A stretch of 64,000 nt of DNA, from assembly GCF_022385335.1 (NCBI RefSeq), contig NZ_CP092431.1, positions 2,976,001-3,040,000 of the forward strand. The letters are read 5' to 3'. The notes under the pieces are model-generated. The model saw nothing but the letters and a program-made list of their open reading frames with translations. It did not search any database and was not told the DNA's origin. The DNA comes from Streptomyces deccanensis (GTDB taxonomy: Bacteria; Actinomycetota; Actinomycetes; Streptomycetales; Streptomycetaceae). This document shows, piece by piece, positions 31,568 through 47,173 of the stretch (its first letter is position 1; each line of letters starts with the position of its first letter). A program made the position numbers and the translations under genes.

Positions 31568-32065
31568 TCACGGCTCCACGACACCGACGCGCTCGAACGA
31601 CGCATCACCTTCAATGATCGGGACATCGAGTTCGCCTCTCAACGCCGACCACAGAAAATCCGTGAACGACATGTCCAGTCGAGCCCACTCCCCCATTTCC
31701 ACGATCACCGACCAGTCTTGCCCTGGATTCACTGGCGGCTGGATGAACACATGATTGCCCGAGATCGACCGACACACGGGCAGGCATCCACCAGGGGCCG
31801 GATGAACAGCGAACGGATACAGCTCAGGCTGACTCCTGGACAGTTCTGCGAATGCAGAGGAAGCCTGCTCCCACAGCAAGTACAGATTCAGCCCCTGGTC
31901 ACCACCTGCCGCTCGCGGATGAAAGAGGTAGAGCTGATCACTGATACAGCCTGGACCGTAGGCCGTCACAAACTCCTTGTAGTCCTCCGGAAGCCCTTTC
32001 GTCAGATCTGCTTCCAGAGACCGCCAATCACGGTCAACGTCTCCGTTGCCCTGCGGCTCGCTCAG
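31568..32065 (-). CDS. SMI1/KNR4-family protein, second of a tandem pair (putative immunity protein)
   Basis: About 165 residues. The SMI1/KNR4 (SUKH-1-like) core is visible: W-R-S-L-E-A-D-L-T-K-G-L-P-E-D-Y-K-E-F-V-T-A-Y-G-P-G-C-I with the conserved L-P-x-D-Y and Y-G-x-G, then W-S-V-I-V-E-M near 130. SUKH proteins neutralise nuclease and other toxins. No ATG, GTG or TTG lies between the upstream gene's stop and the domain. A CTG at 32065-32063 overlaps that stop as CTGA, mimicking the usual ATGA coupling. The next normal start (ATG 32182) would add 39 residues read through the upstream gene. Either a CTG start is used or the start codon has been lost. Confidence 0.75.
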   Translation of the reverse strand: MSEPQGNGDVDRDWRSLEADLTKGLPEDYKEFVTAYGPGCISDQLYLFHPRAAGGDQGLNLYLLWEQASSAFAELSRSQPELYPFAVHPAPGGCLPVCRSISGNHVFIQPPVNPGQDWSVIVEMGEWARLDMSFTDFLWSALRGELDVPIIEGDASFERVGVVEP

Positions 32066-32661
32066 TCGTCGAACGACAGGTTCGCGTAGGGGTCGGGCTC
32101 CCCGGTCCAGGGGTTCAGCCCCTCGTCCAGGAGTCGTTGCTCGTGTCCGCCGCTGATGAACCTTGGTGTCAGGTTTCCCCACAAGGTCGCATCGCTCAGT
32201 GGACAGTCGTCGAACTCACGGTAGAAGAGGCCGCAGAGGAATCCGGTCATGCCCCGGTCGTACTCAGCCCATCGGGGAGACGACTTCTGGCGCCGCCATA
32301 CGACGACCGGCCAGCGGTCGGGATCTTCGTGTTCCGTCTTCCAGCACACGATGTCCGCGGCGACGGTGAGGCCCCAGGCCAGAAGAGGTACGGAACCCAC
32401 ATCCCACAGGTCGACCGCATTGCGCGTCTCTCCCGCCATGCCGCCTTCCTCGACCCCGGCAGGCGTGTTCGGCACCAGGATCGAGAAGGAGTCGTCGATG
32501 GCTCCAGCTCCGTAGTGCGACATGAAGGTCATGTAGTCCGAGGGAAACCCGTGCCCCCAGGCCGTTCGAAGTGCAGCCCAGTCGACCTCCTGGTCCTCAC
32601 CGAGGTCGGCCGGCATGACGGACAGGAGACGGGCCACGCCCTCGTCGCGAGATGAATTCAT
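32062..32661 (-). CDS. SMI1/KNR4-family protein, first of a tandem pair (putative immunity protein)
   Basis: A 199-residue SUKH-type protein: V-D-W-A-A-L-R-T-A-W-G-H-G-F-P-S-D-Y-M-T-F with Y-G-A-G-A-I and later W-P-V-V-V-W-R near residue 115. The ATG at 32661 overlaps the stop of the upstream toxin-like stub by 4 bases (ATGA), so translation is coupled. An earlier in-frame Met at 32721 would read through the stub. Toxin C-terminus directly followed by coupled SUKH immunity gene(s) is the standard layout of polymorphic toxin loci. The two tandem copies differ considerably and may neutralise different toxins. Confidence 0.8.
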   Translation of the reverse strand: MNSSRDEGVARLLSVMPADLGEDQEVDWAALRTAWGHGFPSDYMTFMSHYGAGAIDDSFSILVPNTPAGVEEGGMAGETRNAVDLWDVGSVPLLAWGLTVAADIVCWKTEHEDPDRWPVVVWRRQKSSPRWAEYDRGMTGFLCGLFYREFDDCPLSDATLWGNLTPRFISGGHEQRLLDEGLNPWTGEPDPYANLSFDD

Positions 32662-35386: not shown

Positions 35387-36275
35387 ATGACCGCTCCAGA
35401 CAGTCTGCCCCTGCACGCCCTCATGTCCGCGGAGGCGGATGCCGTCTGCAACGCCGAATACGGGCAGGTCAGCGACGAACGCGTCAACCACCGCAACGGC
35501 TACCGGCCACGCGAGTGGGACACCCGCGCCGGCACCGTCGAGCTCGCCGTCCCCAAGCTGAGGCAGGGCAGTTACTTCCCGCACTGGCTCCTGGAACGCA
35601 GGCGGCGGGCCGAGCAGGCACTCATCAGCGTGGTCGCCACCGCCTACCTGCTCGGTGTGTCCACCCGGCGGTCGAGAAGCTCGCCGAGTCCCTTGGGGTC
35701 ACCCAGCTGTCGAACTCCCAGGTCAGTGCGATGGCCCGGCACCTGGACGAGCAGGTCGCCGCGTTCCGCAACCGGCCGCTGGACGCCGGGCCGTATGCGT
35801 TCGTCTGGGTGGACGCGCTGACCCAGAAGGTCCGCGAGGGCGGCCGCATCATCAACGTCCACGCGCTGATCGCGGTCGGCGTCAACGCCGACGGACACCG
35901 CGAGATCCTCGGCATCGACGTCGCCACGGCCGAGGACGGCGCGGGCTGGCTGGCCTTCCTGCGCCCACTGATCGCCCTCGGCCTGTCCGGGATCCAGTTC
36001 GTCATCTCGGACGCGCACGCCGGCCCCGTCGATGCCATCGGCGCCGTTCTGCCTGGCGCGTCGTGACAGCGCTGCCGCACCCACTACGCCCGCAACCTGC
36101 TGAGCCAGGTTCCGAAATCGGCCCAGCCGTGGGTGGCCACGCTGCTGCGGACGGTCTTCGAACAGCCCGACACCGACGCCGTCCGAGCACAGATGGCACA
36201 CGTCTTGGACGCCCTGGAGGCCAAGTTCCCCAAAGCAGCGGCCCACTTACACCTCCCAGCACGACCTGCAGGCCT
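35387..36275 (+). pseudogene. IS256-family transposase, frameshifted, nonsense-mutated and 3'-truncated
   Basis: Recognisable IS256-family DDE transposase in pieces. Residues from ATG 35387 read N-H-R-N-G-Y-R-P-R-E-W-D-T-R and L-R-Q-G-S-Y-F-P to about 35660. The reading frame then shifts to give S-Q-V-S-A-M-A, F-V-W-V-D-A-L-T-Q-K-V-R-E-G-G-R and I-S-D-A-H-A-G. A TGA at 36064-36066 replaces the Trp of the conserved G-A-S-W-Q-R-C-R motif, and R-C-R-T-H-Y-A-R-N-L-L follows in frame. Another shift occurs near 36245, and homology ends near 36275 before the C-terminal domain. A GCTGATCT / AGATCAGC hairpin (35345-35383) precedes the start. Non-functional. Confidence 0.85.
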
Positions 36276-37017: not shown

Positions 37018-38369
37018 CTATTTGATGGTGACGTAGAAGCCGTCGTCGTCGCCGTCGAGAATGCGATTGAGCGTCATGAACTGTCCGAGAAGATTGCCGG
37101 CGTTGCCGTTGTCTGTCTTCGCCAGCGGCAGGACGGAGAAGTTGTTCTTCGGGGCGGAGGGCTCGTACGTCTTCTGAGCGCAGCCCTCATAGGTGGTCGC
37201 GAAGGGGTACTCGTCGCACTCCTTCCCGCCCTTGGCGTAGTCGTTGCCGAACGCCTTCTTGCACGCGCTCACCGCGGTGGATCGATTCTTCTTGCGGCGT
37301 GCGTTGTCGTGGTAGAGCCGACGCAGCGGCGACTGCGGGCTCGCCCCAGGGACCTTCTTGCCGGCGTTGGCCGGCTTGGTGCTGCCCGGCTTGGTGAACG
37401 CGGTCTTGATGTGGTTGGCGACCGCCCTCTCCGGAGAGCCGGCCTTGGTGCTGTAGACCAGCGGGACGAGATAGGTGAAAACTGCTCCCCCTGGGCCTTC
37501 TTGGGGAGATACGAAGCCTTGTCCCACCGGGGCGGCAGGAAGAACAGCGTCCCGCTCAGCTCCCCTGCCGCCGTGTAGCCGGGAGGCGGAGTTATCACAG
37601 CAGACGCTTCGAAGACGGAGGCGACAGCGTCAGCGGGCTTGGACCCCTGGCCTGCGGCGGCCTTCAGGACACGAGTGAATCCCGCGGGCTGCTGAGCGGC
37701 GATGACATCGAAGCTCCGCGCCCCAGGCACCGCGCCGGTCTGGGTGACCTTCGCGGTGCTCGGCCACACCTTGGGTATTTTCACCGACGGCTTGATCATC
37801 ATGGCCGATGTGGGCAACACACCAGTCTTCTGCATCTTGGTGAAGTACTGGGTGACACGTACGTCGCGGCTGTCCTTCGCTATCGTGCCGACCGATAGAT
37901 AGACGAACTGAGTCTCGCCTACGGGCCGGCCGTTCTGCGACCACACAGTGAAGAACACCGCACCGGAGCAGGAAGCGAAGCGCGACTTGAAGAAGAACTT
38001 CTTGTCCGTGCCCAAGCCCTTGATGCACTCCTGGGGCGTCATCGTGCGAGCGGGCTCGGGATAGGTCACCGGCGGATCAGCCACCGCGGAGCGCTGGCTG
38101 CTGACGCGCCCGTACCTGGACGCCGGACCGACGACCTCGGGAGCATGCACGGAACCGGTGAACGCTTCACGCTCCTTGACGAGCAGGTCTTTACCTCCCG
38201 CCCGCTGAAGATCGGACAGCGAGGGAAGTCGCGTCCCTACCGGCAGGACACTGGTGTGCATTTCTCTGCTTGGCGGTGTGGCCGCGGCCGGTGATGCCAC
38301 CGGCAGAGCAGAAGCAGCTACCAGGACACCGGTCGCCGCAGTGATGGAAAAGGTTCGACGAAACGTCAC
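37018..38369 (-). pseudogene. Secreted NucA/NucB-type deoxyribonuclease gene, split by a frameshift
   Basis: Two overlapping frames make one protein. The 5' part starts at GTG 38369 (V-T-F-R-R-T-F-S-I) with a signal peptide ending S-P-A-A-A and a ~280-residue domain of unknown type. At about 37485-37495, in a short G-run (minus strand), the frame shifts by one and the remainder continues F-T-Y-L-V-P-L-V-Y-S-T-K into a NucA/NucB DNase domain: L-Y-H-D-N-A-R-R-K-K, C-D-E-Y-P-F-A-T-T-Y-E-G-C and N-L-L-G-Q-F-M-T-L-N-R-I-L-D. The D-E-Y-P-F-A motif supplies the catalytic Glu/Asp. It is either a recent pseudogene or a homopolymer sequencing error. If intact it would be an extracellular nuclease of ~450 residues. 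Confidence 0.75.
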
Positions 38370-39558: not shown

Positions 39559-40260
39559 CTACAGAGAAGGCTTGAACCCGGGCACCCACTCGAAGCCGAA
39601 GCCGTAGGCACGGTCGATGAGTTCTTGGTTCGACGACCAGGCATCGGCCGTGAACCAGCGCACTTCGCGCCGCAGGTCGAGGGTGTCACGCCCTGGGGTC
39701 AGCAGCGCGATGGCGCACGAAGTGGCCCCGGCCGGGGAGTCGTCGAGGTGGATCCGCCAAGTACCGCTCGGCGCGCTGATGGTGACGACGCCACCCAGTG
39801 TCCGGAAGTCGACTGCGCCCTCGTAGATGTACACATAGACGAGGAGCTTGGTGAACTGGCGCCGATGCTCCAGGCTGATCCGCAGCGTCTCCCCGTCCGA
39901 GGTCTCGCCGGTCCGGTCGTCCTGGTCGATGCTGACATAGGGCCAGGCGTCCAGATCGCCGAACGTCTCCCCGAGGGGCTGCACAGCGGCTCCCACGCCG
40001 TCGCGGGTGAGAACCAGGCAGCCCAGATCGAGATCGGCCTCGGAGGTGACCGACCAGTTGAGGTTCACCTGGAGGACTCCCCGGCCCACGATCTCGGCAC
40101 GTGGCGTCCGTCGCGTGAGTTCCACCGCAACCGGAGGCGGCGATTGCGCCGTCCCTCTCGGCGTGCGCCTCTCGGTCTCGGCGGGAGGCCCGCCACCGCC
40201 CAGGTGGATGACACCCCGTCGTCTACCGTCACCACTCAACGAGGCCCCCAAGTTCAGCAC
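39559..40260 (-). CDS. TerD-family protein
   Basis: A 233-residue protein with a TerD (Ca2+-binding beta-sandwich) domain in residues ~45-230: L-N-W-S-V-T-S-E-A-D-L-D-L-G-C-L-V, V-S-I-D-Q-D-D-R-T-G-E (metal-binding D-x-D-D-R-T-G), L-L-V-Y-V-Y-I-Y-E-G and the closing E-L-I-D-R-A-Y-G-F-G. The ~45-residue basic, Gly/Pro-rich head is unusual. It starts at GTG 40260 without a clear ribosome-binding site. TerD proteins act with other Ter proteins in metal, phage and membrane-stress responses. It is divergent, across 188 bases, from the five-gene operon containing a TerY-like VWA protein, PP2C and kinase. Confidence 0.88.
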   Translation of the reverse strand: MLNLGASLSGDGRRRGVIHLGGGGPPAETERRTPRGTAQSPPPVAVELTRRTPRAEIVGRGVLQVNLNWSVTSEADLDLGCLVLTRDGVGAAVQPLGETFGDLDAWPYVSIDQDDRTGETSDGETLRISLEHRRQFTKLLVYVYIYEGAVDFRTLGGVVTISAPSGTWRIHLDDSPAGATSCAIALLTPGRDTLDLRREVRWFTADAWSSNQELIDRAYGFGFEWVPGFKPSL

Positions 40261-40448
40261 ATCGTTTGATACCGCTTCGTGACACCCATCCGCTGATGCG
40301 ATTGTCGTCTAGTATGGCGCGCCTGGTGAAGAAGATGTAAAAGTCTCCACCAGTTCGTTCTGCGCTGCGGGGGGCAAGCGCCACTGGGGCAAGCCTGACC
40401 GTTGCCGCGCTTGATCGGCGAGTACGTCCCGGCGTTCACCGGGCAGGG

Positions 40449-41903
40449 GTGGGAATGTTCGCGGGGACACAACTGGATCAAGGGGTGACGGCACGTCACC
40501 TCGAAGACATGGCGCAGGACCCTGCGCTCGCACCGCGCGCCGAGGAACTGCGCGCACTGGCACAGGCGCTCGGCTCAACCGACACGCAGGCCCTCGACGC
40601 ATGGGCCGACCTGGACCTGATGACACACTTCGCCCGGCCCGAGAGCATCGCCGAGCCGGTGGTCGACAGCCGAGGCGCGCGGTTCAACTCGGCACTGGAC
40701 TGGATCCTGGGAGCCTTGGTCTTCCTGCCCCTGCTGTTCACCTGGTTCGGACTGTGGCAGGCGTCCAGCGCGTACGGGGCGCTCACGGGCGACGATCCCA
40801 AGGCCGCCGGCCGGCCCTTCCTCCAGCTGTGGCAGTCCGGGTTCGACGGGCACCTGGGTGAGGCCTTCCGGTTCGGGCACGTCGCTGTCTTCGGTTGCCT
40901 GAGCCTCGCGATGCTCTTCGTCCTCACCGCCGTCCACGGCTACCGGCGCACCGCTGCCGAACGCGACGAGGAGCAGGCGCGCGTCCGTACCCGAGCGGCC
41001 CTCGCCCGCCTGGCGCCGGTCCTCACCCGGGCCCAACTCGCACTGAACGCCCATCGATTCGCATCCCCGCAGCGCTTCGCCGCGGAGCTCAATTCGGCAG
41101 CGGGCCGACTTCAGCGCATGCAGACCAAGGCCATCGCCACACAGGAAGAACTCACCCGGGCCGCCCAGGTGGTGGGCGAGGCCATGGACAAGGCGGAGCA
41201 GCGCCTCGCCCAGGCAGAGTCGTATGTGCGGCCGATCGAGCAGGTCGTGTTGCGCATGGAGGAGACCGTGCGGGACAGCGGCACGGCCATCCAGGCCGCC
41301 GTGCAGGGCCTGGACGATCCGGTGACGCAGGCCGGCCGGCGACTGGCCGACGCCGTCAGCGGACAGACCGGCGTGCTCGACAAGGCGCTGGAGGAAGTGC
41401 GGGTGGCCGGGGACGGTATGCGCGATCTCCTCGCCCGGACCGCGGATCGGCTGGAGGCGGCGGTCGGCGCCAACGGCAGCAGCGTCCACCAGGCATTGTC
41501 GGACGCGGCGCAGCAGGTCGAGGACTCCCTGACCGTACTGGCGGCGTCGCAGCGCGGGTTCACCACCGGCGTCGAGGTCGTCGCGGATGTCAACGGCCGG
41601 CTGCTCAACGACCTCGGCTCGGTGGCCGAGCGCACCGGTGAGGCCGCGGAGGTCTCCCGCGAGGCTCTGCTCGGCATCGAGGCCCGCAGCCAGGCCCTTC
41701 ACGAAGCAGCCGACCGCTTCACCGGCGTCACCGACGCTTTGGTACGGGCGCTGCGCGAGACCGAGACGGCCCGCGCCGAGACCGAGACGGCGCGGAGCGA
41801 GGCTGAGGCGGCGCGGGCCGGGGCCGAGGCCGCCCAGAAGCGGGCCGAGGACGAGCTGCGGCAGGCGAGGGAACTGCGGGCCGGAATCGGATCCGCACGG
41901 TGA
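40449..41903 (+). CDS. Membrane protein with two helices and long coiled-coil tail
   Basis: A 484-residue protein, first gene of the operon. A ~80-residue helical cytoplasmic head precedes transmembrane helices at about 84-106 (W-I-L-G-A-L-V-F-L-P-L-L-F) and 143-164 (V-A-V-F-G-C-L-S-L-A-M-L-F). The remaining ~320 residues are almost entirely amphipathic helix with Ala/Glu/Arg heptads, ending in a repeated E-T-A-R-A-E-T-E-T-A-R segment. This helices-then-long-tail layout recalls ZorA and other MotA/ExbB-like proteins, though only two helices are evident. The start is uncertain (GTG 40449, ATG 40455 or ATG 40509). The stop overlaps the next start as GTGA. Confidence 0.75.
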   Translation: MGMFAGTQLDQGVTARHLEDMAQDPALAPRAEELRALAQALGSTDTQALDAWADLDLMTHFARPESIAEPVVDSRGARFNSALDWILGALVFLPLLFTWFGLWQASSAYGALTGDDPKAAGRPFLQLWQSGFDGHLGEAFRFGHVAVFGCLSLAMLFVLTAVHGYRRTAAERDEEQARVRTRAALARLAPVLTRAQLALNAHRFASPQRFAAELNSAAGRLQRMQTKAIATQEELTRAAQVVGEAMDKAEQRLAQAESYVRPIEQVVLRMEETVRDSGTAIQAAVQGLDDPVTQAGRRLADAVSGQTGVLDKALEEVRVAGDGMRDLLARTADRLEAAVGANGSSVHQALSDAAQQVEDSLTVLAASQRGFTTGVEVVADVNGRLLNDLGSVAERTGEAAEVSREALLGIEARSQALHEAADRFTGVTDALVRALRETETARAETETARSEAEAARAGAEAAQKRAEDELRQARELRAGIGSAR

Positions 41904-42403
41904 GCCCGGTGAGAAGAGGGTTCCGCTTCACCCCGCTGCATCTCGCCGGATGGCTCTTCGCCGACATGCTGCTCGTGCTCGCCCTCGTGTCCATGGGCGA
42001 CCGGGGCGATCCGCTGGCCGCACAGGCCGCCACCCGTCCTTCTCCGTCCGCCTCGTCGGGCGACGCCGAGTCGTCGCCCACACCGAGTCCGACTCCGCAG
42101 GGCCCCCGGTCCGTGGAGCGCAAGCCGGTGAAGGTCCACGTGACGGCCGCGGTCGGTGACAGGACGCGGATGGTGAAGCAACTCCGGTCGGCCACCGCCC
42201 GCTACGAGGGTCGCGCCGCCGCCTTCGTGATGACCTTCGGCCATGCCGTCGAGCCCAGTGACGGTCAGGCGTACGCGCGCGAGATCAACAAGGCTCTGCG
42301 CAAGGCGCGACCGGACATGTTCACCGACGCGACGACGCGGGACTTCTGGAACGGCGGTACCGCGGGCGCGGCCGATCTGGAGATCTACTTCTACACCCGT
42401 TGA
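41900..42403 (+). CDS. Single-pass membrane protein with intramembrane Asp (MotB/ExbD/ZorB-like topology)
   Basis: A 167-residue protein whose GTG overlaps the previous stop (GTGA). A short basic N-terminus (P-V-R-R-G-F-R-F) is followed by one transmembrane helix, W-L-F-A-D-M-L-L-V-L-A-L-V, with an Asp at residue 22. A Ser/Pro/Thr-rich linker follows, then a ~95-residue folded domain (V-K-V-H-V-T-A-A-V, F-V-M-T-F-G-H-A-V, L-E-I-Y-F-Y-T-R). An Asp in the sole N-terminal helix is the proton-path residue of MotB, ExbD and ZorB. The outer domain is about OmpA-like size, but I cannot confirm homology. It is tightly coupled to the tailed membrane protein. Confidence 0.7.
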   Translation: MSPVRRGFRFTPLHLAGWLFADMLLVLALVSMGDRGDPLAAQAATRPSPSASSGDAESSPTPSPTPQGPRSVERKPVKVHVTAAVGDRTRMVKQLRSATARYEGRAAAFVMTFGHAVEPSDGQAYAREINKALRKARPDMFTDATTRDFWNGGTAGAADLEIYFYTR

Positions 42404-42459
42404 CATTCCCCACCTCATGACGGCTGCGCCGTCACCCACGCCTACGCTCAGGAGAGTCC

Positions 42460-43125
42460 ATGCAGATCCTGCCCTTCTACATGGTGTGCGACGAGTCCGG
42501 TTCCATGGCGGGAACCGGGGTCGACGCCATCAACTCGGCCCTGCCCGACCTACACCAGGAGATCAGCACCAATCCGAGTGTCGCGGACAAGACCCGTTTC
42601 GCCCTGATCGGGTTCTCCACCCAGGCCTCCGTGCTGCAGCCGCTCGCGGACCTGAGCGAGCTGACGCAGCTGCCTTCTCTCTCGGCTGGAGGCGTGACCT
42701 CCTTCGGAGCCGCCTTCACGCTGCTCAAGGACACCATCGAGAAGGATGTCGCGGCACTGAAGGCGGACGGCCACGACGTCTACCGGCCCGTGGTCTTCTT
42801 CCTGTCCGACGGCAACCCGACGGACAACGGCTGGCGTACGGCGCTCAAGGAGCTGGAGGCGTTCCGCTACGCCCCGAAGATCATTGCCTTCGGAATCAGC
42901 GACGCCGACGCCGCCATCATCACGGAGGTGGCCAACTTCAAGGCGTTCATCCAGCAGGACGCCTCCATCACGCCGGCCGTCGCGCTGCGCGAGTTCGCCT
43001 CCAGCCTCACCCGGTCCATCGTGAGCTCGGCGACCAGTATGTCCGCACAGGGCGGCGACGGGTTCCAACTGCAGGTCGACGAGCAGGTGCCCGGTTTCAC
43101 GAGCCTCTCCCTCGACAAGCTGTGA
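42460..43125 (+). CDS. TerY-like von Willebrand factor A domain protein
   Basis: A 221-residue soluble VWA protein filling almost the whole chain, typical of TerY. The MIDAS metal site is complete: D11-E-S13-G-S15 (D-x-S-x-S), T80 in G-G-V-T-S and D117 in F-L-S-D-G-N-P-T-D. TerY proteins are found with a PP2C phosphatase and a kinase as the so-called TerY-phosphorylation triad, exactly as here. It probably binds a phosphorylated or metal-bridged partner. An in-frame GTGA links it to the PP2C gene. Confidence 0.9.
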   Translation: MQILPFYMVCDESGSMAGTGVDAINSALPDLHQEISTNPSVADKTRFALIGFSTQASVLQPLADLSELTQLPSLSAGGVTSFGAAFTLLKDTIEKDVAALKADGHDVYRPVVFFLSDGNPTDNGWRTALKELEAFRYAPKIIAFGISDADAAIITEVANFKAFIQQDASITPAVALREFASSLTRSIVSSATSMSAQGGDGFQLQVDEQVPGFTSLSLDKL

Positions 43126-44309
43126 GCGGCCCGATGAACCACGACGCGTCCCACGACGTGTACGGCGAACCGGGTCACGACCCCCGCCGCACGGGCGGAC
43201 CCGCCGATCCCGACGGCCTCGACGCGCACATCGCGGGCCTGCCGTACGGCGTCATGGCACCCGAGATCCTCCCTGGAGTGCCTGAGGCCGCAGTGCCCAC
43301 GGCACCGACGACCCCCCAGGCATATGAGGTTGCCGTGCCGTTCACGGAGCCGGAGACGAAGACTGAGCCGGGGCCGGGGCCGGAGACGGAGCGCCTGCGA
43401 GGAGTGCCGACGCACGTCGGCAATCGCCCGCCCAGTTATCCGCCTCATCCACTGGGCCGCCCCTCCGTGCGGGACTCGGACCTTTTCGCACCCTTCTCTC
43501 CCGTAGTCCTGCTGGACGGGGCCCAGATCGGGAGACTGACCGTGCGTGCCGTCTCCGTGCGGGGCGACTCCCACAACTGGGAGGGCAGTTGCCGCCAGGA
43601 CGCCATGGCGGTGACGCGGATCGGCCCACCGGAGGCGGAGCTGCTCCTGCTGGCCGTCGCTGACGGGGTGGGCTCCGCCCTGTACTCACATGTGGGCTCC
43701 TACCAGTTCTCGCGCCTCACCGCCGTCTACTTGGACCGGGAGGCCGAGAACATCCACGCGGCCCTGTGCGCCGGCGATGGGGAAGAGCTGCGCGTCCTGG
43801 CGACCAAGGCCGTCGCCGGCGCGGCCGCCGAACTGCGCTCCGGGTGGGCGCGCACCGCCCAGCACCAGCCCCGGCCCTATGCCGATCAGGACTACGCCAC
43901 CACGCTGCACGTCCTCCTGGTGCCCACCGACGCGCGCATCCGTGACCGTGTGCTGTTCAGCGTGGGCGACGGCGGCCTGTTCGTACTGCGTGACGGCCGC
44001 TGGGAGCAGGGGGATCCGGAGGGAGGCGAGGATCTCCTGGACACCCGCACCGAGGCTCTCCCGCACGCCTACCGCAGCGTCAAGGCCACGGTGCTGCGTA
44101 CCGCGCCGGGTGAGGTCCTTCTGTTGGGCACCGACGGCATCACCAACCCGCTCACCCAGAAGGACCCGGAGTTCGCGCGCCACCTGGCCGGGGCCTGGGG
44201 CGGGCCGGAGGTCCCTTCTCTGTCCGACTTCCTGTGGCAGGCGCAGACCCGGGCCAAGTCCTACGACGACGACCGGACCGTCATCTGCGTGTGGGAGGAG
44301 CAGGGATGA
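43122..44309 (+). CDS. PP2C-family Ser/Thr protein phosphatase
   Basis: A 395-residue protein. The first ~115 residues are Pro/Glu/Thr-rich and probably disordered. The PP2C core follows with its metal-binding motifs: S-C-R-Q-D-A-M-A-V near 163, V-A-D-G-V-G-S-A near 184, V-G-D-G-G-L-F near 286, L-L-G-T-D-G-I near 336 and Y-D-D-D-R-T near 383. GTG 43122 overlaps the VWA stop (GTGA); ATG 43134 four codons later is an alternative. It should dephosphorylate targets of the adjacent kinase, with which it shares an ATGA overlap. Confidence 0.9.
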   Translation: MSGPMNHDASHDVYGEPGHDPRRTGGPADPDGLDAHIAGLPYGVMAPEILPGVPEAAVPTAPTTPQAYEVAVPFTEPETKTEPGPGPETERLRGVPTHVGNRPPSYPPHPLGRPSVRDSDLFAPFSPVVLLDGAQIGRLTVRAVSVRGDSHNWEGSCRQDAMAVTRIGPPEAELLLLAVADGVGSALYSHVGSYQFSRLTAVYLDREAENIHAALCAGDGEELRVLATKAVAGAAAELRSGWARTAQHQPRPYADQDYATTLHVLLVPTDARIRDRVLFSVGDGGLFVLRDGRWEQGDPEGGEDLLDTRTEALPHAYRSVKATVLRTAPGEVLLLGTDGITNPLTQKDPEFARHLAGAWGGPEVPSLSDFLWQAQTRAKSYDDDRTVICVWEEQG

Positions 44310-45259
44310 GTGCACAGGATGGCGGCGACGTCGCCCGCTCGTCGCTCACGCTGGGGAACCGGGTCGGCAGCGGCGGCCAGGGCGAGGTGCACGCCATCGG
44401 TGACGGATCACTGCTCTACAAGGAGTACAAGGACCCGTCCAAGGTCAACGGCCATGCGCTCGCGGACCTCGTCTCGTTCCGGCAGGGGCTCGGCCAGGCC
44501 GATCGGGTCCGCTTCGACGCGCTGGCAGCTTGGCCGCTGTGCCGGGTTGTCGACGGGGGCCGGACGCTCGGTTTCCTCATGCGGCGGGCCCCGTCCTCCA
44601 TGACGTGGCGCACCGCGACCGGGACGACGAAACTCCTGGAGTTGCAGTACCTGATCAGGCCTCCGAAAGTGGCCTGGCAGGAGGTGTCGCAGCCGACGCC
44701 CGACCAGCGCAGGACTCTCGCCCTGGCCTGTGTCGAGGCCATCGGCTGGTTCCACGACGCCGGTCTGGTGATCGGTGACATCTCACAGGCCAACGTCCTG
44801 TGGTGCCTCAAACCCGAACCCGCCGTCCACTTCCTCGACTGCGACGGCTTCCGCCGGGTGGGGCGAGACGCTGTTCAGGCCCAGGCCGCCACTCCCGACT
44901 GGAACGATCCGCTCGCCCCGTCCACCGAGGCGAGCGTCGACACGGACGCCTACAAGACAGCCCTCACCGCGGGGCGCATCCTCGCGCAGGATCCGTACGC
45001 CAGACCGGACCAGCAGCTGCGGCCCGTCCCCGGCTGCCTCAACGAGCGCCAGGCCGCCGCGGCGGGGAAGCTTTTCACCCAGGCCGCGGGCGAGCGCGGA
45101 ACCCGGCCTCGTCCCAGTGAGTGGCAGACGGCGCTGAGCGACCGGGGCACCATCACCCTCACCGCGGCATCGCCCAGACCCAGGCCCGCCATCGACCACA
45201 CGGTCCTCGACGGGTTGCGCGACCGAACGCCGATCAACCTGCGGGCACCGAGGCAGTGA
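44306..45259 (+). CDS. Protein kinase-fold protein with atypical catalytic loop
   Basis: A 317-residue kinase with a Gly-rich loop (R-V-G-S-G-G-Q-G-E-V, residues ~18-27) and ATP-binding Lys in L-L-Y-K-E-Y. The catalytic loop reads V-I-G-D-I-S-Q-A-N-V-L, where G-D replaces the usual H-R-D or H-G-D. The metal-binding motif is L-D-C-D-G-F instead of D-F-G. C-terminal helices contain A-A-A-G-K-L-F-T-Q-A and a Pro-rich end. These variants match the kinase member of TerY/PP2C triads, though the zinc-ribbon tail sometimes present is missing. Last gene of the operon; an insertion sequence lies 16 bases past its stop. Confidence 0.85.
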   Translation: MSAQDGGDVARSSLTLGNRVGSGGQGEVHAIGDGSLLYKEYKDPSKVNGHALADLVSFRQGLGQADRVRFDALAAWPLCRVVDGGRTLGFLMRRAPSSMTWRTATGTTKLLELQYLIRPPKVAWQEVSQPTPDQRRTLALACVEAIGWFHDAGLVIGDISQANVLWCLKPEPAVHFLDCDGFRRVGRDAVQAQAATPDWNDPLAPSTEASVDTDAYKTALTAGRILAQDPYARPDQQLRPVPGCLNERQAAAAGKLFTQAAGERGTRPRPSEWQTALSDRGTITLTAASPRPRPAIDHTVLDGLRDRTPINLRAPRQ

Positions 45260-45275: not shown

Positions 45276-46134
45276 GACGTCATTTCACTTGGTGAGTCGG
45301 CGGTGACATATGAGGGTGGCGGCGATGGCGGTGAACGCGAGGAAGTGTTCCGGCTTGCGCTCGTAGCGGCGGTGGAGGCGTCGGCAGCCAGACAGCCAGG
45401 ACACGGTCCGCTCCACGACCCAGCGGTGCCGGCCCAGGCTTTGGGACGACTCGACGCCCTTGCGGGCGAGACGGTGCGGGATGCCGCGGGAAGCGAGCCA
45501 TTGCCGCAGGTAGCGGTAGTCGTATCCCTTGTCGCCAGCAGCTTGCCGGGCCGCCGGCGTCGGGGTCCGCGTCGCGAACGGATGGGCGGGATACCGCGGA
45601 CCAGCGGGATGAGTGCCTGGCTGTCGTGAAGGTTGGCGGCGGAGATGCCGACCGACAGAGGCAGGCCCTGGCGGTCCACAATGAGGTGGATTTTCGATCC
45701 CCTTTTGCCGCGGTCGGTCGGATTCGGTCCCGTCAGCTGCCCCCTTTGAGGGCACGGACGCTGACGGAGTCGATTGCGCACCGCGACCAGTCAAGGCCAC
45801 CCCGGGCACCGAGTTCGTCCAGGACCAGGCGGTGCAGCTTGGCCCACACCCTGGCCTCTGTCCACTCGGTGAACCGCCGGAAGGCGGTGACCCCCGACAG
45901 CCCGAAGCCCGGCGGCAGTTGGTTCCAGGTGCAGCCCGAGGTGGCCACGAAGACGATCGCGGCCAGCGCCTCGCGGTCCCCTCGCCGGCGGTGCCCTCCA
46001 CCCTGCGGGCGAACCGGTGCCGGCGGCACCACCCGCTGGAACAACGTCCACAACTCTTCCGGCGCCATCCGCTCGACAAGCGCAGCAGTCATCACCCCAG
46101 ACTGCCGCAAGATCACGCCAACTGAAATGACGTC
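45276..46134. mobile_element. IS5-family insertion sequence (IS427-like), 859 bp
   Basis: Bounded by inverted repeats GACGTCATTTCA (left) and TGAAATGACGTC (right), extending imperfectly several bases inward, and flanked by the target duplication TAA (45273-45275 and 46135-46137). It contains one frameshifting transposase gene on the minus strand. The short TNA-type duplication fits IS5 relatives. Confidence 0.85.
45285..46116 (-). pseudogene. IS5-family transposase, programmed -1 frameshift plus a second disabling shift
   Basis: The first frame (from ATG 46116) reads G-C-T-W-N-Q-L-P-P-G-F-G and F-R-R-F-T-E-W, ending R-A-L-K-G-G-S at 45733. A slippery AAAGGGGGC allows -1 shifting into G-K-R-G-S-K-I-H-L-I-V-D, as is normal for this family. 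A second shift near 45533 is needed to reach D-K-G-Y-D-Y-R-Y-L-R and H-R-W-V-V-E-R-T-V-S-W-L, which carry the DDE residues. That second shift is not expected, so the gene is probably inactive unless the sequence has a one-base error. Confidence 0.8.
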
Positions 46135-46137
46135 TAA

Positions 46138-47173
46138 CGAGTTGGTGCGTGATAGCGGGTGAGGCGTGTTTGGCCTGGGCGTGACCTGTACTCAGACGTT
46201 GATGGTGCGGTCGGAGACGAGGCTGGCAATGGCGCGGTAGGTGTCGGGCAGGCAGTCGCGGCGGTGGGTCCAGCGCGTCAGTTGTTTCCAGCGTTTGTGG
46301 TCGGCGAGGGCATGTTCGACGGTGATGCGGTCGGAGGAGTGTTCGTGGCGGTCGCGTTCCCACTGCTGGACTCTGCCGGGCAGTGCTCCGGGCCGGGGTT
46401 TTCTGGGTGGGGTGATGGCTTGTCCGCGGTGGTCGCGGCTCAGGCCGAGGTAGCCGTCGTCCAAGAGGACCTCGACGTCGGGGAAGTGCTGGAAGCAGAC
46501 GGCGATGCCCTCGTTGCGGGCGGCCGTGGCATCGTGCATACGACCAGGCCGCAGGGTGTCGGTCCATAACGTGCGGCCCCGCCAGTCGGCGATGACGGTG
46601 GCCTTCATGGTGTTCTGCTTCTTCTTCCCGGAGACGAATGCGCGCCGTCCGCCGCGGCCGGCCGGTGGTCGGCGGACCTGGATCTCAGTGGCATCCAGGC
46701 GCAGCTCGATGCCCTCGGCCTGGGCGTAGGCGAAGACGTCCGCCAATGTCCGAAGTCGCAGGCTGGGGCGGTCGGGGACCGCGCACCCCCGCGTGGCCAG
46801 GAGCGTACGTATCTCTGCGATCGCACGGGTGATGGTCGAACGGTCGACACCGAACAGCAGCCCCAGGACTGAGTGCGGCAGGTCGTGCCGTAGATGGATC
46901 AGTGTGGCCACCAGCCGGTCGACGAAGACCAGCTGGTGGCGGGCGCCGGCTCCCGCTGCCCGCTTCCTGGCCCCACCTCGTGCAGCATGGCGACGACCCT
47001 CGACTCCGGCTTGCCACGGCACCGCCAACTCCTCGATCAGGCAGGCGAGGTGACGCCGAGAGATCCCTGTGAACAGCCGGTGGGCCAGCACCGCCCGATT
47101 GACCATGATCGTCACAGACGGATCATGCCACCGGCCAGGCACGACGCCTCACCCGCTATCACGCACCAACTCG
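46138..47173. mobile_element. IS5-like insertion sequence with perfect 30-bp inverted repeats, 1036 bp
   Basis: Left end 46138-46167 and right end 47144-47173 are exact 30-base inverted repeats beginning CGAGTTGGTGCGTGATAGCG. The element is flanked by TAA at 46135-46137 and 47174-47176. It contains one intact transposase gene on the minus strand and looks capable of movement. It shares its left TAA with the right end of the neighbouring IS. Confidence 0.9.
46192..47106 (-). CDS. Transposase, DDE_Tnp_4 (HARBI1-like) type of the IS5 group
   Basis: A 304-residue intact transposase. The N-terminal helix-turn-helix (L-G-L-L-F-G-V-D-R-S-T-I-T-R-A-I) precedes a DDE catalytic core with L-R-L-D-A-T-E-I-Q-V-R-R, G-K-K-K-Q-N-T-M-K, L-L-D-D-G-Y-L-G and the late V-E-H-A-L-A region holding the Glu. 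ATG 47106 (M-V-N-R-A-V-L) is preferred; GTG 47142 next to the inverted repeat is possible. No frameshift or stop is seen, in contrast to the neighbouring IS. Confidence 0.88.
   Translation of the reverse strand: MVNRAVLAHRLFTGISRRHLACLIEELAVPWQAGVEGRRHAARGGARKRAAGAGARHQLVFVDRLVATLIHLRHDLPHSVLGLLFGVDRSTITRAIAEIRTLLATRGCAVPDRPSLRLRTLADVFAYAQAEGIELRLDATEIQVRRPPAGRGGRRAFVSGKKKQNTMKATVIADWRGRTLWTDTLRPGRMHDATAARNEGIAVCFQHFPDVEVLLDDGYLGLSRDHRGQAITPPRKPRPGALPGRVQQWERDRHEHSSDRITVEHALADHKRWKQLTRWTHRRDCLPDTYRAIASLVSDRTINV

Follow-up and report, generated by a model that had tools for sequence, protein, structure and literature searches.

Several described systems come close to parts of a five-gene locus of Streptomyces deccanensis that lies in a window of 64,000 nucleotides (the whole stretch of DNA analysed: contig NZ_CP092431.1, positions 2,976,001 to 3,040,000, forward strand) and joins genes for two membrane proteins, here called M1 and M2, to genes for a VWA protein, a PP2C phosphatase and a protein kinase-like product. 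In the Zorya defence system, the aspartate of ZorB packs against a ring of ZorA serine/threonine residues, and defence depends on that aspartate, on the tail of ZorA and on the domain that binds the wall (PMC11890865; this and the other papers cited here by PMC number are drawn on in part). The 5:2 motors TolQR, ExbBD and MotAB are likewise A/B membrane pairs. TerY-P triads are adjacent genes for a VWA protein with a metal ion-dependent adhesion site (MIDAS), a PP2C and a kinase, and TerY-P-like modules with an OB-fold kinase are stand-alone antiphage systems according to PMC11090510, which cites other work on the point. Literature matches, as listed and judged from titles and the beginnings of abstracts of mostly open-access papers, contained no account of a motor-like pair with a TerY-P-like switch. 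The best explanation that we can offer for the locus is an envelope-sensing, ion-powered A/B complex that works through a phospho-switch in phage defence, a reading held tentatively and at somewhat short of an even chance.

The features of the locus, in window coordinates, are these (aa, amino acids; ORF, open reading frame; TM, transmembrane):

39559..40260, minus strand: TerD-like ORF, 233 aa, divergent; at most a distant TerD relative
40449..41903, plus strand: M1, 484 aa, A-subunit-like; an N-terminal region is followed by two TM helices (by hydropathy) and a long predicted cytoplasmic helical/coiled-coil tail
40692..40763, plus strand: M1 TM1, with Pro94, Thr98 (Thr or Ser) and Trp99, conservation scored over 112 rows
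40872..40943, plus strand: M1 TM2, by hydropathy
40944..41900, plus strand: M1 predicted cytoplasmic tail, to which weak PADLOC ZorA similarity is confined
41900..42403, plus strand: M2, 167 aa; single TM helix, Pro-rich linker, predicted OmpA/MotB-like fold; B-subunit-like
41936..41998, plus strand: M2 TM helix, motif LAGWLFADMLLVLALV
41963..41965, plus strand: M2 Asp22 codon, the buried acid, in register with ExbD/TolR
42110..42400, plus strand: M2 extracytoplasmic domain, predicted strands and helices, predicted local distance difference test (pLDDT) 92-99
42460..43125, plus strand: VWA protein, 221 aa, MIDAS motif residues present
43122..44309, plus strand: PP2C phosphatase, 395 aa, metal-site motifs present
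44306..45259, plus strand: protein kinase-like, 317 aa, with LYKEYK, GDISQAN and LDCDG and without a CxxC zinc ribbon

The five genes run in one direction on the plus strand, uninterrupted from 40449 to 45259, and the coupled operon is real. M1 and M2 overlap by GTGA (41900-41903), VWA and PP2C by GTGA (43122-43125), and PP2C and kinase by ATGA (44306-44309), while M2 and VWA are separated by 56 bases; these coordinates bear out an earlier note on this DNA, which had described a coupled five-gene operon with three overlaps. The divergent ORF starts 188 bases upstream of M1. A scan for promoters and terminators across the locus gave no signal exceeding shuffles.

M2 is the B-subunit-like member. 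A buried aspartate lies in its single TM helix (residues 13-33) and is kept in all 108 loci scored and in 110 of 112 aligned rows, and a charge rule places the N-terminus inside in 84 of 103 rows (topology for both proteins was taken over 103 distinct rows, L085 and L093 being skipped). The helix that carries this residue aligns in register with ExbD and TolR, and it is there that M2 is nearest to them in sequence. When the M2 family profile was run against 177,635 PDB sequences, TolR and ExbD filled the first five places, weakly (E 0.07-0.2); sequence comparisons with the ExbD/TolR/MotB group gave shuffle counts of 1/200, 0/200 and 0/100, with a MotB probability of 4-11%. M2 matched no Pfam family, PF02472 included. 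Structure prediction gives its extracytoplasmic domain an OmpA/MotB-like fold with moderate Z, and the classical OmpA peptidoglycan-binding motif is not evident in the M2 alignment. No copy of M2 was found in phage, plasmid or viral-contig sequences. One M2 relative, beside a GTPase-like gene (L195:7960-8439, plus strand), has glutamate in place of the buried aspartate.

M1 is organized as an N-terminal region, TM1, a loop of about 35 residues, TM2 and a tail of median length 313 residues (range 84-637 in the 103 distinct rows), and by charge distribution 102 of 103 are predicted to have a cytoplasmic tail and an external loop. TM1 keeps its proline in 112 of 112 rows, threonine in 110 with serine in the other 2, and tryptophan in 112 of 112. 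By these features M1 may be said to work like a motor A subunit, and together M1 and M2 resemble the A/B pairs of MotAB, ExbBD and ZorAB. Family membership of M1 is another matter. Pfam, HHalign and PDB profiles revealed no homology of M1 to MotA/ExbB/TolQ (PF01618), with nothing above shuffles. According to a review of 5:2 motors (PMC9389320), homology to MotAB is not obvious in GldLM either, so that missing A-subunit homology alone does not exclude a motor. ZorA was considered as a homologue of M1 and set aside: the PADLOC ZorA matches (best E 4e-5) fall only in the tail and were not counted as homology.

The comparison with Zorya is one of build. Both have a two-gene membrane pair in which the B protein carries an N-terminal TM aspartate and a domain of the OmpA/Pal wall type (predicted, in M2), and in which the A protein has a TM serine/threonine and a long cytoplasmic tail; a helicase link is present in part of the M1-M2 family (compare PMC11890865). 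They differ in that M1 has two TM helices and no sequence homology to the ZorA core, and in the partners, which are VWA/PP2C/kinase or GTPases. None of ZorC, ZorD and ZorE appeared when PADLOC was run on 16 proteins of the window, no search being aimed at them, and a single ZorA model found no match in the window's own genome. With the TolQR/ExbBD/MotAB motors the pair shares the aligned aspartate helix, the resemblance of the predicted M2 domain to that of MotB, and A-like and B-like genes that stand side by side; it differs in matching neither PF01618 nor PF02472, in adjoining signalling genes and in its Gram-positive host, in whose genome we found no MotA/ExbB or ExbD family member. The side-by-side arrangement has one exception, an M2-like gene with no M1 seen nearby (L048:8800-9348, minus strand), which was excluded from pair counts.

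The same data might be read without ion flow. M1-M2 could be a passive membrane anchor or scaffold, in which the M1 coiled coil recruits the switch (or GTPases), M2 tethers the assembly to the wall and the aspartate is structural. The absence of homology to motor A subunits and the mere two TM helices of M1 count here against an ion-driven complex, as does the reuse of the pair with very different cytoplasmic partners, which a scaffold would predict. Conservation argues the other way: the most distant rows share only about 14-35% (M2) and 24-35% (M1 TM region) with the window proteins, yet the buried aspartate and the TM threonine/serine are kept, and M2 comes nearest to TolR/ExbD precisely at the aspartate helix. 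We regard the scaffold as somewhat unlikely.

The earlier note had read the remaining three genes as a TerY-P triad coupled to the two membrane proteins. VWA, PP2C and kinase do lie adjacent, as in the systems of PMC11090510, and VWA (PF00092) and PP2C (PF13672) passed Pfam cut-offs, whereas the window kinase has no C-terminal zinc ribbon (no CxxC in 317 aa); the triad is here called TerY-P-like. The VWA protein retains the MIDAS residues (DxSxS, T, D), PP2C the DG, GDG, TDG and DD motifs, and the kinase a lysine, GDISQAN and DCDG; a survey of such residues over 42 loci met some exceptions. No Pfam family was above cut-off for the kinase, M1, M2 or the divergent ORF, and the kinase had no Pfam match even at E<=1; it is weakly similar to LanL (E 1e-4) and, in PADLOC, to MkoA alone (E 1e-5), while VWA and PP2C were unmatched in PADLOC.

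The grouping of M1-M2 with VWA, PP2C and kinase is more than chance. When 200 genomes from the family to which the window belongs were scanned at E<=1e-3, M2 was found in 26, several of them by chance (of 28 matches, the seven followed as L045 and L049-L054 were set aside as such by eye). In the class, M2 was matched in 20 of 394 genomes (21 matches, three of which, in G524 and G516, were not followed). Window-type M2, VWA (at least 60% identity) and kinase occur in an identical set of ten of the 200 family genomes, the kinase alone in one more, and M1 and PP2C are also present in nine of nine relatives looked at. So restricted a distribution bears out the view that the membrane pair does not belong to a housekeeping family. 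In the best 79 of 110 confirmed loci M1 lies within 4 kb of M2 every time, and it is beside M2 in 112 of 113 loci of a larger set, L195 being missed by the M1 profile and lost at this step; the 112 pairs reduce to 105 distinct ones. Of these 79, 41 have all five genes clustered on the same strand (M1 and M2 having changed places in L126) and 2 more are cut by contig ends; the co-occurrence across actinobacteria proposed in the earlier note holds. The rest of the 79 comprise 18 loci near divergent VWA and kinase genes and 18 others.

Sorted by partner, the 105 distinct pairs comprise 42 TerY-P-like, 32 GAP1-GTPase, 12 BrxD plus BrxHI, 3 dynamin and 16 other; the GAP1-GTPase label also covers loci with an FN3-like marker only (L043, L096, L109), with FN3-like and BrxHI-like markers (L044), with FN3-like marker and kinase (L101) and with a weak GTPase match (L188, L190). 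A tree of the pairs clusters by partner, with 7 changes among labelled rows, or 15 when 'other' is counted (shuffled mean 52.8); its branches are supported by the Shimodaira-Hasegawa-like approximate likelihood ratio test (SH-aLRT) alone, and a number of long ones come together. Among named relatives, S. caniscabiei has the pair closest to that of the window. That the TerY-P-like switch and the membrane pair are unrelated, independent modules placed together by chance is very improbable in this light, given the clustering by partner, the identical ten genomes, the M1/M2 GTGA overlap and a VWA gene only 56 bases away. What speaks for independence, and so against a single machine, is that the pair occurs without the triad, with GTPases in some genomes and with no marker partners in very small actinobacterial ones. 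These small genomes (1.3-1.5 Mb; L184-L187) carry a short M1-M2 pair with an AGW-x-[YF]-AD helix, and none of the marker partners was seen in the 13 kb examined.

Ten of the 12 BrxD plus BrxHI loci have the full triad and two the kinase only. In L112, L114 and L121 the operon runs on into BrxD and BrxHI, making in Microbispora (L121) a seven-gene series M1-M2-VWA-PP2C-kinase-BrxD-BrxHI whose last two products are matched by PADLOC at E 9e-183 and 0; Pfam BrxC_BrxD is matched there too, and an N6-methyltransferase gene lies upstream. The likeness to BREX type 2 (PMC12839542, whose main text contains no 'MotA', 'Zorya' or 'TerY') consists in these two proteins, which neighbour 12 of the 105 distinct M1-M2 pairs; the search for BREX proteins around the pairs covered BrxD and BrxHI, not PglX, PglZ or BrxC. 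BrxD was not matched in the window's genome, in a scan without positive control. The kinase of L121 (12092-13624, plus strand) has a C-terminus, residues 390-506, that matches the PglZ C-terminus (PADLOC E 1e-19), a sequence likeness that makes a link of the system to BREX possible. In Streptomyces lichenis (L064:2266-7544) BrxD, BrxHI and an AbiU/AIPR protein lie just past the TerD-like gene in a locus of the window type, an order unlike that of L121. A contig labelled Thermoanaerobacterales, with very high GC content at third codon positions and possibly misbinned, has M1-M2 with BrxD/BrxHI matches (L123).

The divergent-type relatives match the third theme of the GAP1-N2 GTPase-centric conflict systems (PMC7159879, with no 'MotA', 'ExbD', 'proton' or 'ion channel' in its main text); the window locus differs in having no GAP1/GTPase marker nearby. 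One such relative, L038, has GAP1 (PF20052, PF20014), VWA, PP2C and a zinc-ribbon kinase beside M1-M2, and other pairs adjoin a double-GTPase (PF19993, L118) or a dynamin-like GTPase (PF00350, L046). A protein of about 700 residues, FNIII-like by eye, is a regular neighbour of pairs near divergent VWA/kinase genes (L038, L043, L089-L101); the L038 copy had no Pfam match.

As a mechanism for the ion-powered complex favoured here, M1 and M2 would assemble in the manner of ZorAB, MotAB and ExbBD into an ion-conducting complex in which M2 Asp22 would lie within a ring of Thr98 residues from several M1 copies, with the OmpA-like domain of M2 toward the cell wall and the M1 tail in the cytoplasm. 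The tail would be read, or gated, by kinase, PP2C and VWA acting as a reversible phospho-switch. When wall or membrane is disturbed, an infecting phage being the most plausible cause, M2 would engage the wall and ions would flow; the tail would then move and the switch flip toward arrest or defence. In relatives with BrxD-BrxHI coupled to the switch, the output would therefore act on DNA, and the window version, with no BrxD-BrxHI beside it, would act through the kinase. A wider and more doubtful proposal, to which we give about a third of our belief, is that M1-M2 is an undescribed family of minimal ion-driven motors, present in actinobacteria and some Chloroflexota, whose A subunit has two TM helices and whose B subunit combines a TolR/ExbD-like aspartate helix with a MotB-like domain; these motors would in common sense the envelope and supply power for at least four immune-type outputs: the TerY-P-like phospho-switch, the BrxD-BrxHI helicase, GAP1/double-GTPases and dynamin-like GTPases. 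If so, bacterial immunity would use ion-powered motors for sensing in general and not in Zorya alone, TerY-P-like switches would gain a physical input in the cell envelope, and a Gram-positive genome seemingly without MotA/ExbB or ExbD would have a motor. What such triads sense would become a question of point mutations (M2 D22N, M1 T98A).

A defence role also has to be weighed against an envelope or stress-response switch, answering to cell wall damage or to tellurite or metal stress. In favour of stress, and at the expense of defence, about 10-13 Streptomyces share one chromosomal site for the locus, beside purE-like, UDP-glucose-dehydrogenase-like and LCP-like cell-wall genes (all named by eye), the flanks there yield 1 PADLOC family in 101 proteins at E<=1e-15, and a TerD-like partner is present in 23 of 43 loci. 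Against it, relatives carry BrxD-BrxHI or belong to GAP1 conflict systems, and copies at variable sites, the window group among them, have defence-type neighbours: 77 PADLOC families among 99 flanking proteins at the same threshold, a count inflated by generic kinases, with REase_II in 3 proteins and mad6 in 2 among the matches listed. (Of the proteins listed, 101 of 112 were used for the fixed site and 99 of 101 for the variable sites, where both Brx proteins of L064 were omitted.) We consider a stress switch rather unlikely.

The divergent gene had been called TerD and made a part of the machine. Its orientation stands; the name and the fixed membership do not, the gene being optional among the 43 window-type loci just counted. 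The protein is conserved (46-90% in 14 relatives), and none of 15 homologues matched PF02342 (TerD) at E<=1, a model that made 13 matches elsewhere in the same genome. HHalign against eight TerDs of that genome gave a collinear 86-column match with a score of 24.7, above all column shuffles (0/100 as high), at a probability of 5%, and a PDB profile search with the ORF family had no TerD among matches up to E 10. The ORF is thus TerD-like at most distantly, and the TerD label is weak.

As to the window's own surroundings, proximity to known defence genes was found in the relatives with BrxD/BrxHI and not here: none of the ten proteins flanking the operon was matched by PADLOC at E<=1e-3, so the defence argument from an island fails at this site, and the BrxD-BrxHI relatives back defence better. 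The island of transposons and toxin remnants pictured in the earlier note survives in its first half. A Mutator-family transposase fragment lies upstream of the operon (35731-36066) and two DDE-type transposase ORFs downstream (45285-47106), one of them below the Pfam cut-off. The 'toxin remnants' amount at most to an ORF with a NucA/NucB DNase domain (37018-37527, minus strand; Pfam E 9e-9) and a weakly SUKH-like ORF, below cut-off, at 32062-32661.

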